DNA of 64,000 bases from Bradyrhizobium sp. in8p8 (lineage in GTDB: Bacteria > Pseudomonadota > Alphaproteobacteria > Rhizobiales > Xanthobacteraceae). The notes below the pieces were generated by a model. The model saw only the letters and a list, made by a program, of their open reading frames with translations. It did not search any database and was not told where the DNA came from. A program made the translations under genes and the position numbers. Positions 14,550-47,787 of the stretch are shown here, in pieces. Position 1 is the first letter of the stretch. Every line of letters begins with the position of its first letter. Where the stretch lies: contig NZ_AUGD01000010.1 of assembly GCF_000426845.1 (NCBI RefSeq), positions 62,001 through 126,000 on the forward strand, given 5' to 3'.

Positions 14550-14842
14550 ATGTCGCTGACTTCATCGCGAGCCTCGACGGCGCGGCGCCGGCGCAGGAGC
14601 TGAGTGCGCCGCTCGTAGGCCTCTGGTGGGCAGCGAAGGGTGACTGGGACCGCGCGCACAAGATCGTCCAGGACGACAACGGCCGTGAAGCCGCCTGGGT
14701 GCATGCATACTTGCACCGCGTCGAAGGCGATCTGGGCAATGCCGGCTATTGGTACCGCCAGGCCGGCCAGGTCGCAGCAAAGGATTCATTGGAAGCGGAG
14801 TGGGAGCGGATCGCTGCCACGCTGCTTGGGAGCAGGACATGA
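14540..14842 (+). CDS. Small conserved TPR-like protein between gatA and gatB
   Basis: The product is about 100 aa. Consecutive GTG codons at 14540, 14543 and 14546 can all serve as start, the first overlapping gatA by 10 bases. The sequence is helical and Trp/Ala-rich: [39 protein letters not shown] and WYRQAGQ, which resembles one or two TPR/Sel1-type helical hairpins. Its TGA overlaps the gatB ATG by 4 bases. The protein-like composition, full overlap at both ends and codon use support a real gene. Function is unknown; the position suggests a partner of GatCAB or merely a coupled passenger. Confidence 0.75.
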
Positions 14843-16317
14843 GCACGGCAACGCACAAGCTTCTCAAGGGCGCCACCGGGGATTGGGAGATGGTCATCGG
14901 CATGGAGATCCATGCCCAGGTGACGTCGAACGCCAAGCTGTTCTCGGGTGCCTCGACCGCGTTCGGCGGGGAGCCGAACAGCCAAGTCTCGCTGGTCGAC
15001 GCCGCGATGCCGGGCATGCTGCCCGTGATCAACGAGGAATGCGTCAGGCAGGCTGTCCGGACCGGACTTGGCCTCAACGCGAAGATCAACCTGCGCTCGG
15101 TGTTCGATCGCAAGAACTATTTCTATCCGGACTCGCCGCAGGGCTATCAGATCAGCCAGTACAAGTCGCCGGTGGTAGGCGAGGGCGAGGTGCTGGTCGA
15201 GCTCGACGGCGGCCGCAGCGTCACCATCGGCATCGAGCGGCTGCATCTGGAGCAGGATGCCGGCAAGTTGCTGCACGACCGGTCGCCGACCATGTCCAAT
15301 GTCGATCTCAATCGCTGCGGCGTGGCGCTGATGGAGATCGTCTCCAAGCCCGACATCCGCGATGCCGAGCAGGCCAAGGCCTACGTAGCGAAGCTGCGCT
15401 CCATCCTGCGCTATCTCGGCACCTGCGACGGCGACATGGAGAAGGGATCTCTGCGCGCCGACGTCAACGTCTCGGTGCGCAAGCCCGGCGGGCCGCTCGG
15501 CACCCGGTGCGAGATCAAGAACATGAACTCGATCAATTTCATCGGCCAGGCGATCGAGTACGAGGCGCGGCGCCAGATCGAGATCCTCGAGGATGGCGGC
15601 CAGATCGACCAGGAGACGCGGCTCTACGATCCCAACAAGGGCGAGACGCGCTCGATGCGCTCGAAGGAAGAGGCGCACGATTATCGTTACTTCCCCGACC
15701 CCGACCTGTTGCCGCTGGAGTTCAGCCAGGCGTTCGTCGACGAGCTGAAGGCCCAGCTGCCGGAGCTGCCTGACCAGAAGAAGACGCGCTTCGTCGCCGA
15801 TTTCGGGCTCTCGGCCTATGACGCGAGCGTGCTGGTCGCCGAGCGCGAGAGCGCGGTCTTCTACGAGACGGTGCTCGACAGGCTCGCCAACCGCGCCCGC
15901 GACGGCAAGATGGCGGCGAACTGGGTGATCAACGAGCTGTTCGGCCGTCTCAACAAGGAAGGCCGGGGCATCACGGACTCTCCGGTCGATGCCCAACAGC
16001 TTGCAGCCATCATCGACCTGATCGGCGAGGGCACGATATCGGGGAAGATCGCCAAGGATCTGTTCGAGATCGTCTGGCAGGAGGGCGGCGATCCCCGCGC
16101 GCTGGTGGAAAGCCGCGGCATGAAGCAGGTCACGGATCTTTCGGCGATCGAAAAGGTTGTCGACGACATCATCGCGGCGAACCCCGACAAGGCCGCGCAG
16201 GTCAAGGACAAGCCGCAGTCGCTCGGTTGGTTCGTCGGCCAGGTGATGAAGGCGTCGGGCGGCAAGGCCAACCCGCAGAGCGTCAACGACCTGCTCAAGT
16301 CCAAGCTGGGCGTCTAG
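14839..16317 (+). CDS. gatB: Aspartyl/glutamyl-tRNA(Asn/Gln) amidotransferase subunit B
   Basis: The product is 492 aa. It has the GatB cradle domain ([72 protein letters not shown]), [13 protein letters not shown], and the C-terminal YqeY/tail domain from about residue 345 ([13 protein letters not shown] to [13 protein letters not shown]). GatB phosphorylates the mischarged Glu or Asp on tRNA and transfers ammonia delivered by GatA. The ATG at 14839 overlaps the upstream stop; the open frame further upstream lacks similarity. A hairpin after the stop is a possible operon terminator. Confidence 0.97.
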
Positions 16318-16332
16318 CCTCGCACGTGCGTA

Positions 16333-16365
16333 CGAGGTGACGGACACGCTTCGTCACCTCGCTTT
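16333..16365 (+). terminator. Candidate terminator after gatB
   Basis: CGAGGTGACG (16333-16342) and CGTCACCTCG (16352-16361) form a perfect 10-base stem with a 9-base loop, 15 bases after the gatB stop, followed by CTTTCC. The T-tract is short, so efficiency is uncertain. Confidence 0.5.
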
Positions 16366-16882
16366 CCGCTTCGGTGCGACGCTCGCGCGCATGCTCGGAA
16401 GAAAACTTCATCCCGATCCACGCTGCTGCCGCGACCGAATCGCCGTCACGCGATTCGCGCAAAACGGCGGCTTGCACAGGCTCCGACGAGCGATTGCGCC
16501 GTTAAGCACGAAAATATTTTCGTTGCCAAAATTCGCGACTCAGAGTCCGCGAAGCGCCCCGGCAACGTGATCGCCGAGGTGTCGATGCACATCATCGCAT
16601 CGATCGCGCGTGATGCGCGCGTGCAGAAAAATACTTGCTGCATAGTGTTTTCATGCAATCGCGTCTCTCTCGAACGCCGATGCTGCGAGTGCTCCTTGCG
16701 ATCGCTCGCGCGCGTCGCGCAGTGTGCTTGCGTCGCGCTCGCAAGCGCACGCGCGTTGCGTCGTCAACACTTCTTTAAGCGAGACGCTGTTTTTTTCTTC
16801 GTGTTGGTGTATTCGGGATGAAGTGCATTCGATCCCCGAATGCACGCAGCGATTAAAGCCATCTCACACATCGGAGGGCAAC
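16366..16882 (+). promoter_or_regulatory. Structured upstream region and leader of the H1-like gene
   Basis: No gene is seen in these roughly 520 bases, but several structures are. CGAAAATATTTTCG (16509-16522) is a perfect palindrome. A 10-base stem with one G-T pair spans 16723-16749. GTGCATTCG-ATCCC-CGAATGCAC (16823-16845) is a perfect 9-base hairpin 37 bases before the ATG. An upstream ATTCGGGAT (16811-16819) could instead pair with 16832-16841, giving two mutually exclusive folds. The start is preceded by GGAGGGCAAC. The region is rich in CGCG and GCAAGC words unlike neighbouring spacers. Confidence 0.5.
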
Positions 16883-16981
16883 ATGGCCAAGAAAGCGAAG
16901 AAGGCGAAGAAGGCGAAGAAGGCGAAGAGCGCAGTGAAGAAGACTGCGAAGAAGACCCGCAAGGTCGCAAAGAAGAAGTAA
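16883..16981 (+). CDS. Lysine-rich histone H1-like mini-protein
   Basis: The product is only 32 aa: 18 lysines plus Ala, Thr, Val and one Arg, with no acidic residue. It begins with four AKK-type repeats (MAKKAKKAKKAKKAK), followed by SAVKKTAKKTRKVAKKK. A strong ribosome-binding site GGAGGGCAAC lies directly upstream. The composition matches the C-terminal tails of bacterial histone H1-like proteins (AlgP, HctA/Hc1 type) that bind DNA and compact the nucleoid, but no globular domain is present. The AAGAAGGCG repeats in the DNA are prone to slippage, so length may vary between strains. It stands alone in a gene-poor stretch. DNA or RNA binding is inferred from charge. Confidence 0.72.
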   Translation: MAKKAKKAKKAKKAKSAVKKTAKKTRKVAKKK

Positions 16982-16997
16982 CTTCGCTTCTGAAGTT

Positions 16998-17792
16998 GCC
17001 GGCTTCAGATAGCCGGCACGTCATCAGCGCCTTCGAGGTTCTGGTCGACGATAGAGGGTGTCGGCGAGACATCAGGTCAACGGTCGGATCGTTCTCCTTC
17101 ACGGTCCGGCAGAAGAAACGAGTTTTCTTCGTTCGGTGCGGGTATCCTTTTTGAGAGCCCCGCAATTTCGCAAGCAGCCTTCGGGCTCATGTGAAATCTG
17201 GTCCTGACGTGTTCGCCGACGCCCTCGTTCTCCTGAGGCCGGGGTATTGCCGGCATTCCTTTCCCCACATTGCTGATCTGACCGGGACGGCGCCCAGCTG
17301 ACGTCTCTGCCTCCGACCGTGGGCAGGCGAGGGTTGCGGCTTGACTTGCGCCGCTCGCGCGCCGCGTCTGGAGTTGCGGTGCCTTCGCCTGGCTCCGACG
17401 GGACAATCCAGCACACCGTGGCTTCTCGGTGGATCGCCGTTGTCTCTGGAAGCTGCATCACCGCTCTGGGAAGATGCGATGCGCGGCGCGCGATAGGCCA
17501 CAGCGCGCATCCGACTGCGCGTGATGGTTATCGATGTCCTGAATTCCAACGGTAAACCGAATCTGACGAATCGCAGAAGTGCCTGCAACTCAGGAGCTTT
17601 TTGGATTCCGCAGCTCGGCGTCGCACACCCGCGTTTACGTCTGCTTCATCGCGATACTTAAACTGCCATTCAAATTTGCCCGCCATCATCGTCTCCAACA
17701 AGCCGGCAAACGGCATGGGATGAGTCGAACAGCTTTTTGGACGGGAGCCGCGCTCGGGGGACGAGGCGGCATAAGAACAAAGGGGATGCGTG
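16998..17792. other. Gene-poor spacer after the H1-like gene
   Basis: The first bases hold two adjacent inverted repeats, AACTTC-N6-GAAGTT (16980-16997) and GCCGGC-N8-GCCGGC (16998-17017), which could end the H1-like transcript although no T-tract follows. The remaining 770 or so bases contain only short frames without protein-like composition on either strand; I see no RNA gene or mobile element. Confidence 0.5.
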
Positions 17793-18059
17793 ATGTTTCA
17801 GGGTACTTTCGATCTGGAGACGGCAACGCCGATCGATGCGAGCGCGCTGTCGGACGTGCTGTTCGAGCGCGGAATCTACTGGGCGAGCGGCCGCTCCGGG
17901 ATCGTCGATCTCGTCGCCGCGCACAAATGGTTCAACCTTGCCGCGTTGAAGGGCCGCAAGGACGCCGTAGCGCTGCGCCAGGAAGTCGCCGGGCAGATGT
18001 CGGAAGCCGAGATCTCGGCCGCACAGCGCGAGGCGAGGGCCTGGGTCTCCGCGCACTGA
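17793..18059 (+). CDS. Small Sel1-repeat-like protein
   Basis: The product is 88 aa. The middle, RSGIVDLVAAHKWFNLAALK followed by GRKDAV, matches one Sel1-like repeat (the AHKWFNLAA core is diagnostic), and the C-terminus MSEAEISAAQREARAWV is the helix typically following the last repeat in small alphaproteobacterial proteins of this kind. The N-terminus MFQGTFDLETATPIDASALS has no signal peptide, so a cytoplasmic location is likely. An ATG at 17793 is favoured over the GTG one codon before. Sel1 proteins act as protein-protein interaction scaffolds; the partner is unknown. Confidence 0.75.
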   Translation: MFQGTFDLETATPIDASALSDVLFERGIYWASGRSGIVDLVAAHKWFNLAALKGRKDAVALRQEVAGQMSEAEISAAQREARAWVSAH

Positions 18060-18547: not shown

Positions 18548-19368
18548 GGTGCGAGCCTTATGCATCTAATTGCTCGCGCGGGTCAAATTGGAAGCGCGTG
18601 TTTCGCTCGAATTCCCAGTGAATTTCGAAACATAGGGGTGCTCTGAGCGGCCAAGAGCGTGGCGCCGCCAAGGCAGATCCGAGGCCTGTCCATGTGAGCA
18701 TGGATACAGGATGCTCTGTGGAGGGAGACTTCCTTGCTCCCCTCGATGTCCGATTTTCCCTTGAAGTTCAATGGTCTGCGAGAAGGCTAGGGAAGATTGA
18801 CCTCCCTGCGTCTTGTCTTGCGAGCTGCCGGCGCGATCCCGATCTTCGCCATCTCTATAAAGAGTCATTGCCGGCGCGCCAAAGGCATTGCGGCGACTGC
18901 GCTTACCGGGGCGAAGGCGCTGATGTCTGTCCATTGAGTCTCTTCGTGATTCCACGATTCGAGCGCGTCAAAGCCACTCCAGGCCGATGTCTTCAGAAGC
19001 GGCGCCCCATGTGGGGAACTTTGATGGCAAATGGAACCGCCTCAAAAACGTTAGTGAAAACAGTAGGTTGCAAGCGCGATCTGATCACATCTGCGTGTTA
19101 TTTGTGCAACACCCACCGGAAAACACGCTTCCTCGGCCCGTTTGGGAGCGTTCTCTTGTTGTGTGTGCAAGGCCGTTCGGTAATTGTGACTGAGCGACGG
19201 AGGGGGGCATCCCGAGGTCGTCCCGTTTAGGTCTTTCGCTTAAGTCCCTCGCGTTCATGCGGGTGTGTCCGAAGGCGCGAAGGGGCCCAAAGCGGTGATT
19301 TAGAGGGGGCTGGGGAATTGACCATCCGGTCAGTGACCTTCCCTGAAAGAGCAACTTGGAGGTTTAAC
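18548..19368. other. Spacer between tRNA-Ser and the porin gene
   Basis: No gene can be supported in these 820 bases. A hairpin CCTGTCCATG-TGAGC-ATGGATACAGG lies at 18684-18710. An open frame on the plus strand (about 18694-19230) has unnatural composition and no start signal. The last bases carry the porin ribosome-binding site GGAGGTTTAAC; the promoter of this highly expressed type of gene must lie within the final few hundred bases but I cannot fix it. Confidence 0.5.
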
Positions 19369-46773: not shown

Positions 46774-47591
46774 TACGCCTTCACCTTGTTGGTGGGCCAG
46801 TTGTGGGTCTCGGCGGTGGCGTCGCGGCACCAGCGGAAGAAGGCATCGTAGAGCAGCATGCCGGCCTCGAGTTGATCGAGGTCGTCGTCATACATGCGCG
46901 ACAGCCCGAGCGAGGCCGCGAGCAGGCCGGGCGCCTCCGGCGCGAGATCCGGCCGCGCGGTGTCGGCGCCGCGCACCAGCGTTGCGAGCCGGAGCAGGGG
47001 CGGGAAGGCGATGCCGAACTCCTCGATCATGACGTCGAAGGTGCAGAGCTCGCCACGGTGGCTCCAGAACACGTTCTCGATGTCGAAGGGTGCTGCATTG
47101 AACCGCTCGCCGACGCCGACGACCTCCGACGGTGCCACATACAGGAACACCGCGTCGGGATCGACGAAGCGGCGGATCAGCCAGGGGCAGGCGATGCGAT
47201 CGACCTTAGGCCGCGCCCGCGTCACCCAGACGGTGCGCCCCCTGGCATCGCGTGGCGGCAGCTTGCGGGTATCGACCAGCGGCAGCCTGGCGGCCTTCCA
47301 GGCCTCGAAGCCGCCCTCCAGCGTTTCGGCTTGCACGCCGAGCTGGCGCAGCCAGGCTGCGGTGCCCTGCGCGAGCTTCTCTCCGCGCAGGCAGGATACG
47401 ACGGCACGGCGCCCGGCGAACGCGCCGCCCCAGTCCGTCACATTGTCGTGGCCGAACTTGATGGAGCCGGGGATCAGCCTCCGGTCGGCAGCAAAATCCT
47501 CCTCGGTGCGCACATCGATCAGCGCAGGCGCGTTCGCCGTGCCGATCAGCCGTGCCAGTTTGTCGGATGAGATGGTGGTGAATGTAGACAT
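46773..47591 (-). CDS. Rhodanese domain fused to ChrB-type chromate resistance domain
   Basis: The product is 272 aa. Residues about 5-105 are a rhodanese domain: ALIDVRTEEDFAADRRLIPG, the active-site Cys in VVSCLRGEKLAQGTAAWLRQ, and LEGGFEAWKAARLPLV. Residues about 118-270 match the ChrB C-terminal domain (RTVWVTRARPKVDRIACPWL, then IRRFVDPDAVFLYV and SEVVGVGERFNAAPFD). ChrB proteins act with ChrA as chromate sensor or resistance protein. It is the first gene of the two-gene chr operon. The rhodanese part could supply persulfide or reduce the oxyanion; that is inference. Confidence 0.9.
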   Translation of the reverse strand: MSTFTTISSDKLARLIGTANAPALIDVRTEEDFAADRRLIPGSIKFGHDNVTDWGGAFAGRRAVVSCLRGEKLAQGTAAWLRQLGVQAETLEGGFEAWKAARLPLVDTRKLPPRDARGRTVWVTRARPKVDRIACPWLIRRFVDPDAVFLYVAPSEVVGVGERFNAAPFDIENVFWSHRGELCTFDVMIEEFGIAFPPLLRLATLVRGADTARPDLAPEAPGLLAASLGLSRMYDDDLDQLEAGMLLYDAFFRWCRDATAETHNWPTNKVKA

Positions 47592-47787
47592 GATGCGTCC
47601 TCGCAAGAAACGAACGGGACGCGATGCTTGGGCCTGTCGCCTCGTGGGGAGATCGCTCAAATCCCCATGACGCCAATTACAGCGAAACTAAGAAGCACTG
47701 TCAATCCGCGGGACGATTGGACCTTAGAAAATTGCGGCCCGCCGTCTATATTGCACGCCGACAGAGCTGAATCTTCGAGAGAATTCG

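Follow-up and report, generated by a model that had tools for sequence, protein, structure and literature searches.

Among described bacterial proteins, those closest to the peptide reported here are the chlamydial Hc2 and Hc2-like proteins and Bordetella BpH1 (PF07382), which in the accessible text of the source (PMC2848022) share with it a richness in lysine and alanine, repeats, few acidic residues and length polymorphism by whole repeats. The same text gives 165-237 residues for Hc2 in Chlamydia trachomatis (PMC2848022), versus 18-54 residues for the orthologs found here (128 loci). Also unlike Hc2, the present peptide matches no profile, and its gene is linked to gatB and a structured RNA. 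Pseudomonas aeruginosa AlgP likewise carries basic repeats resembling an H1 tail, and KPAA-like stretches occur in some orthologs of the peptide (L170, for example); as far as the available part of the report goes, AlgP counts 352 residues with a 124-residue N-terminal domain (PMC9239181), whereas here the basic tail stands alone. The AlgP layout, an N-terminal helical domain followed by a KPAA tail, was not found in the peptide, which has 32 residues and one predicted helix.

Bacterial dual-function RNAs, such as RNAIII and SgrS, combine a short open reading frame with a structured regulatory part. The present locus resembles them in joining a short reading frame and a large conserved structure on one presumed transcript, and differs from them in that it has no known target, its structure is apparently derived from a terminator and it is restricted to one family. 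Conserved RNAs have been described from the same lineage, namely BjrC1505, BjrC80 and BjrC174 (RF02356, RF02354 and RF02355), all located elsewhere in the genome under study, and start-site positions on USDA 110 have been given for the B. japonicum small RNAs BjsR1-BjsR10 (PMC5082802). Promoters controlled by CcrM and GcrA and shielded by MucR bear clusters of GANTC sites upstream of the gene, four in the case of Caulobacter P169, according to the accessible portions of two reports (PMC3667746, PMC5172544). Unlike these, the GANTC sites described below keep constant positions along some 395 bp throughout a family. Neither the peptide gene nor the RNA is mentioned in the literature searched, mostly open-access main text, nor in the accessible parts of PMC5471319 and PMC9549626.

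The locus was analyzed within a stretch of 64,000 nucleotides (the window hereafter), in which its features are arranged as follows.

14749-16317, plus strand: gatB, glutamyl/aspartyl-tRNA amidotransferase subunit B, the upstream neighbor (Pfam GatB_N and GatB_Yqey on 14788-16314).
16436-16457, no strand assigned: block A, two facing GANTC (CcrM) sites, CGAATC at 16436-16441 and GATTCG at 16452-16457.
16503-16551, no strand assigned: block B, an A/T tract (holding the palindrome at 16509-16522), TTGCCA and two GANTC sites (16537 and 16543).
16623-16660, no strand assigned: block C, moderately conserved in conservation profiles.
16762-16822, plus strand: 5' half of block D, with CTTC(C/T)TTAAG, a T tract and GTTGGTGTATTC, strongly conserved in 93 loci; probable promoter region.
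16823-16845, plus strand: hairpin P1, supported by covariation.
16873-16878, plus strand: Shine-Dalgarno sequence GGAGGG.
16883-16981, plus strand: gene of the H1-like, Lys/Ala-rich peptide of 32 residues, open reading frame MAKKAKKAKKAKKAKSAVKKTAKKTRKVAKKK.
16998-17017, plus strand: hairpin T1 after the stop codon, GCCGGC...GCCGGC (7 pairs, 52 sequences).
17019-17050, plus strand: helix P0, between T1 and R2.
17054-17226, plus strand: R2 domain, a 24-pair closing helix around four hairpins, supported by covariation.

A sequence-only reading of this DNA had proposed a very small H1-like gene behind a strong ribosome-binding site, and had named a lack of conservation of leader and coding sequence among close relatives as grounds for dropping the idea. 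Both parts of the proposal are borne out, as GGAGGG lies upstream of the start codon, its GAG being without variation in 56 aligned sequences, and the coding sequence and the adjacent leader are both conserved among relatives; its count of 18 lysines has to be corrected to 17 in 32 residues. A 683-bp query covering leader and reading frame matched all 146 congeneric genomes, counting the source genome. E<=1.4e-45 was reached in 143, and the weakest three matches (G045, G097 and G101) come from incomplete assemblies with completeness of 89, 75 and 67%. The reading frame follows the same leader in each of the 132 loci read. These derive from 101 loci, eight duplicates among them (L001, L032-L035, L037, L039 and L041, omitted from most counts), and from sets of 20, 16 and 3, with L110 and L166 cut by contig ends; in one batch, four of 20 new loci had no reading frame by pattern, three of which were then read by hand, the fourth (L184) being a paralog outside the 132.

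Alignment gaps between orthologs comprise whole codons, and in the conserved C-terminal block, variation at codon position 3 is about fourfold that at positions 1 and 2 (0.055 vs 0.014, 86 loci). Aspartate and glutamate are absent from the 128 short orthologs, in which lysine makes up 52% on average with a minimum fraction of 0.37, and arginine replaces lysine in many orthologs from distant genera. At one locus with the same leader and position (L183:16-627, minus strand), the ortholog is a Lys/Ala-rich H1-like protein of 204 residues, more than six times the 32-residue form, with 44 lysines and 5 acidic residues. A single-sequence AlphaFold2 model of the peptide predicts one helix over residues 2-31 (pLDDT 94). 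Pfam and NCBIfam gave no match for the 32-residue peptide, and the 204-residue ortholog, similar to Hc2 in its composition, stays below the Hc2 cut-offs (PF07382, 12.3 vs 40 bits; NF038052, 6.5 vs 135 bits). A search of solved structures returned no sequence relative at E<=10, but such a search has little power with a peptide this short and simple. Two broad features of an H1-like basic tail are present, a composition rich in lysine and alanine with few or no acidic residues, and a repeat number varying by whole codons. On this comparative evidence the peptide gene is real and is H1-like in a loose sense only, falling outside the Hc2 family.

The gene has gatB upstream in 129 of 132 loci (93/93 distinct ones, 15/20, 9/16 and 12/13 re-fetched); as for the others, L103 has no gatB within 2.3 kb, L102 lies at a contig end and L166 was outside the gatB test. 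In the window, Pfam identifies both gatA and gatB; the listed reading frame of the latter starts at TTG, a start near 14839 appearing to fit GatB better. A leader model built from block D (R1) detects its target in 100 of 149 genomes of the family and in 35 of 47 genera; among 249 genomes of the order, it matches eight, all family members, and the R2 model matches ten, eight of them in the family and two weakly (8.1e-5 and 5.2e-4). An order-wide presence was rejected on these grounds, and among the genomes searched, the transcription unit behind gatB appears to be confined to Bradyrhizobium and its family relatives. A plasmid-borne element was likewise rejected, with no match among 72,556 plasmid records, as was a position at the chromosome origin, GC skew keeping its sign at the locus. 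The next open reading frame (17790-18059, plus strand, 89 residues) has no Pfam match and only a weak NCBIfam one (MerG, 16.2 vs 350 bits). Similar proteins lie farther downstream at 64 of the 101 loci examined; this count includes duplicates, and many loci end before that point.

The strongest feature of the locus, absent from the sequence-only reading, is the R2 domain. This stretch, first taken as a folding control, folds best: of 22 loci, 19 reach a z of -2 or below, and the mean is -3.94. Across 49 sequences, 92.5% of cells pair and 29 of 56 pairs are doubly changed; double-change cells number 97, versus 34 after shuffling and at most 53 in slid controls, and the closing helix is nearly invariant. 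G-U pairs outnumber A-C pairs (267 vs 62) and the R2 model, which has one strong match in its own genome, scores 169.6 bits on the plus strand vs 36.3 on the minus strand; the G-U excess and the strand scores together indicate an RNA with the same orientation as the peptide gene. At E<=0.01 the model finds 65 of 149 genomes of the family, 47 of them at E<=5e-23, compared with 100 for the leader model. The three alignments used comprise 56 of 107 distinct references (A1), 28 of 42 (A2) and, once a 92% identity filter had cut the 107 to 68, 49 of these (A3). That the gene and R2 are both real is held with high confidence.

R2 or a hairpin form of it lies 3' of the peptide reading frame at 111 of 113 loci, the exceptions being a contig that ends at the gene and a locus with a single arm only. 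The distance from the stop codon is 71-138 nt in 110 of the 111 and 268 nt in L118. R2 is represented by a plain hairpin of 39 nt in four loci (L108, L113, L114 and L115) and of 39-43 nt in six of 16 further distant loci. This short form often has a T-rich tail; three or more T in a row are found within 9 nt of the end of R2 or the hairpin in only 24 of 111 loci, so that termination at R2 is uncertain. Since a terminator-like hairpin occupies this place in distant genera, R2 probably forms the 3' end of the mRNA for the peptide, and its simplest history would be the enlargement of a terminator hairpin, through its loop, into a structured 3' domain. Our confidence that peptide gene and R2 form one transcript is moderate.

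R2, P1 and the spacer match no curated Rfam family. Searches there yielded two sub-threshold matches for 16200-17900 at E<=5 and another two for seven relatives at E<=1; over the whole window, gathering thresholds were passed only by tRNA and chrB-a, both elsewhere. The chrB-a RNA motif lies at 47589-47671 on the minus strand (79.6 bits vs a gathering threshold of 43.9). An identity of R2 with BjrC1505, BjrC80 or BjrC174 was rejected, these having above-cut-off matches elsewhere in the genome (contigs C1, C6 and C3). The R2 stem sequence also occurs in L231, titled Frankia sp. RB7, an assembly that is probably misnamed or contaminated.

On the other side of the gene, conservation of the leader across 93 loci clusters in blocks A to C and most strongly in D (16762-16882). 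Block D looks promoter-like 5' of P1, with CTTCCTTAAG, a T tract and GTTGGTGTA[T/A]TC; a sigma-70 consensus scan detected no promoter in the leader. From the look and conservation of the block, transcription probably starts there, in which case the true 5' UTR would be about 60-70 nt long, not more than 500. The P1 loop reads CGATTC in many relatives and CGATCC here. In this hairpin, 17 double-change cells were counted, versus 6.6 after shuffling and at most 8 in slid controls, in five of ten pairs, and the excess of G-U over A-C pairs (26 vs 7) points to an RNA of the plus strand. A possible helix of GCCAUCUC with the Shine-Dalgarno sequence and start codon pairs in 96.1% of cells and has no covarying pairs. 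Two genomes, G187 (L125/L184) and G237 (L126), hold another, paralogous Lys-rich peptide gene that has a hairpin resembling P1, its loop GATTC, and an ordinary terminator; these paralogous copies are without block A and without R2. P1 and the peptide thus travel together, and block A and R2 are tied to the main locus. The present genome has another small Lys-rich gene, MAKKAKKAAKKKAKKAKKAKKK (L122, G000:C8:356227-356292, minus strand), with a different leader; L123 and L124 are similar.

The sequence-only reading had further described more than 500 bases of structured leader, to be checked by compensatory changes. The 565-nt spacer between the gatB stop and the reading frame is there, as are hairpins in this genome, whose 16430-16990 segment folds better than shuffles on both strands (z of -3.2 on plus and -2.9 on minus). 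A conserved long structure is another matter. Over 23 loci, spacer folds average z of -0.97 on plus (4/23 at -2 or lower) and -1.03 on minus (6/23), the locus of this window being among those at -2 or lower, and RNAalifold on 28 near relatives found scant compensation; with both results against it, the long structured leader is not supported, and the compensatory changes sought are those of P1. Nor is an open reading frame in the spacer, the longest open frames being scattered over all six frames. The perfect 14-base palindrome reported in the leader, CGAAAATATTTTCG, is indeed present at 16509-16522; the window holds 13 such palindromes vs about 4 expected under uniform base frequencies, the leader copy being unexceptional by count, and relatives keep the A/T tract, not the palindrome.

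What the spacer does conserve is the length between block A and P1. CGAATC is found at -425 to -470 relative to the ATG in 129/129 loci and in three of three more, hence 132/132, L103 with no nearby gatB included, and only 8 times elsewhere in 54,180 nt of those spacers; the loci had been picked by similarity to block D or the reading-frame region, not by CGAATC. Position analyses relied on the 125 of 129 loci with a pattern-matched loop, on 56 mutually diverged loci and on the 114 with a usable gatB end. In these 114 loci, CGAATC lies 394.9+-2.9 nt from the P1 loop (range 382-406) and 130.6+-49.7 nt from the gatB end (range 44-456). Between blocks, identity among the 56 diverged loci is 0.27-0.32, near chance; the A/T tract of block B is conserved by position in these sequences, and its TTGCCA/GANTC part was not found in most of the distant loci. 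Folding over 23 loci, covariation and open frames give no explanation for the rigid length. Pairing of block A with the P1 loop as RNA was rejected, the hexamer being invariant in 129/129 loci while the loop varies.

The four GANTC sites are kept in 93/93 and 84/93 loci (block A) and in 91/93 and 82/93 (block B), with four cases in which the middle base is altered yet the site retained; GANTC is depleted in the window as a whole (125 vs 210 expected). Clusters of four GANTC within 120 nt number two in the window, the other one starting at 18862 and spanning about 120 nt. The GANTC of the P1 loop has been lost in the clade of this strain, with GATCC in 42/93 loci. The locus thus bears conserved upstream GANTC sites, which are a sequence feature of CcrM/GcrA-controlled promoters. 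In the accessible parts of the respective reports, nearly all GANTC of B. diazoefficiens is methylated (PMC4840208), and GcrA and MucR act at GANTC sites in other alphaproteobacteria (PMC3667746, PMC5172544). Together with the conserved CcrM hexamer, these observations make methylation-linked control of the upstream region plausible.

Collectively, we favor, with a probability of about 0.6, a model deduced from these comparisons in which a structured mRNA encodes an H1-like peptide and is governed by a control region that is rigid and perhaps tied to methylation. The unit behind gatB would yield a minimal H1-like peptide, a short and almost purely basic Lys/Ala helix that may bind nucleic acid by charge. 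Transcription would begin at conserved block D, the mRNA carrying the P1 hairpin in its 5' part near the ribosome-binding site and ending in the elaborate domain of T1, P0 and R2, probably grown from a terminator hairpin. The 450 bp upstream would work at the DNA level and not as an RNA leader; the GANTC sites and A/T tracts at fixed promoter distances suggest methylation-linked control, by GcrA, MucR or similar. Our confidence in the mechanism of the locus is low.

Several other explanations bear on parts of this model. The peptide could be associated with RNA or ribosomes instead of packing DNA, and possibly bind its own 3' domain, a reading we consider possible, if clearly the less probable one. 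Composition cannot tell DNA from RNA binding, RNA binding is reported for an H1-like protein of Chlamydia in the accessible text of the source (PMC2848022), and the adjoining structured RNA would be a natural first ligand; however, the structure search returned no relative that could speak for it (for so short a peptide, a weak test), the paralogous genes do without R2 and ten loci keep the peptide with a hairpin only. It is rather doubtful that R2 constitutes a small RNA gene in its own right, driven by a separate promoter that would lie after the stop codon and before R2, and is a chance neighbor of the peptide gene. Its structure does go far beyond what a terminator needs, with a nearly invariant closing helix, and the available text on BjrC174 describes an abundant Bradyrhizobium small RNA without mapped promoter (PMC4842269). 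This reading has to contend with the constant position of R2 or its hairpin behind the gene (111/113 loci), with T1 and P0 occupying the intervening space, and with the plain terminator-like hairpin held at the same place by distant loci. A further proposal goes beyond the favored model, namely an RNP-type unit in which the mRNA 3' end, R2, is the preferred ligand of the peptide, combined with a promoter "molecular ruler" in which a methylation-marked site acts from about 395 bp away and the intervening sequence is irrelevant. We know of no precedent for such a cis element, and we deem this combination unlikely.

The upstream 450 nt might instead be transcribed, as a long noncoding RNA or a true leader in which length matters and sequence does not. 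The rigid spacing of block A and P1 (sd 2.9 nt) would agree with this, as would the better-than-shuffled fold in the source genome and a z of -2 reached by 4/23 loci on plus and 6/23 on minus; but the mean z of about -1 on both strands, the scant compensation among the 28 near relatives and a hexamer that never co-varies with the P1 loop in 129 loci render it distinctly improbable. Least probable of all, to the point of being nearly dismissed, is that the Lys-rich frame encodes an attenuator control peptide, with ribosomes that stall at its lysine codons refolding the downstream RNA. It would agree with the 17 lysine codons among 32 and with the conserved structured domain, its closing helix terminator-like, that comes after them, and is the strongest form of the sensing of lysine-tRNA supply suggested in the sequence-only reading. 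That suggestion is unsupported, as is a lysine attenuator, given that single-amino-acid control codons are not conserved: many orthologs use arginine in place of lysine, and both length and lysine fraction vary, the latter from 0.37 upward. In addition, R2 begins at least 71 nt past the stop codon, which is far for the classic competition between ribosome and terminator, and the next reading frame is without a Pfam match.

Short basic genes of this kind slip past annotation and transposon sequencing; the Tn-seq screen of USDA110spc4, in the accessible part of its report, excluded genes shorter than 310 bp (PMC8225791). The present gene is retained throughout a family comprising symbionts and soil bacteria. 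Its locus combines a minimal H1-like peptide, a covariation-supported RNA outside Rfam and a cis region conserved in length and not in sequence. The fixed spacing, the GANTC sites and the R2 helices offer handles on how such peptides are regulated, and the locus lets one ask whether terminator hairpins evolve into structured mRNA 3' ends.
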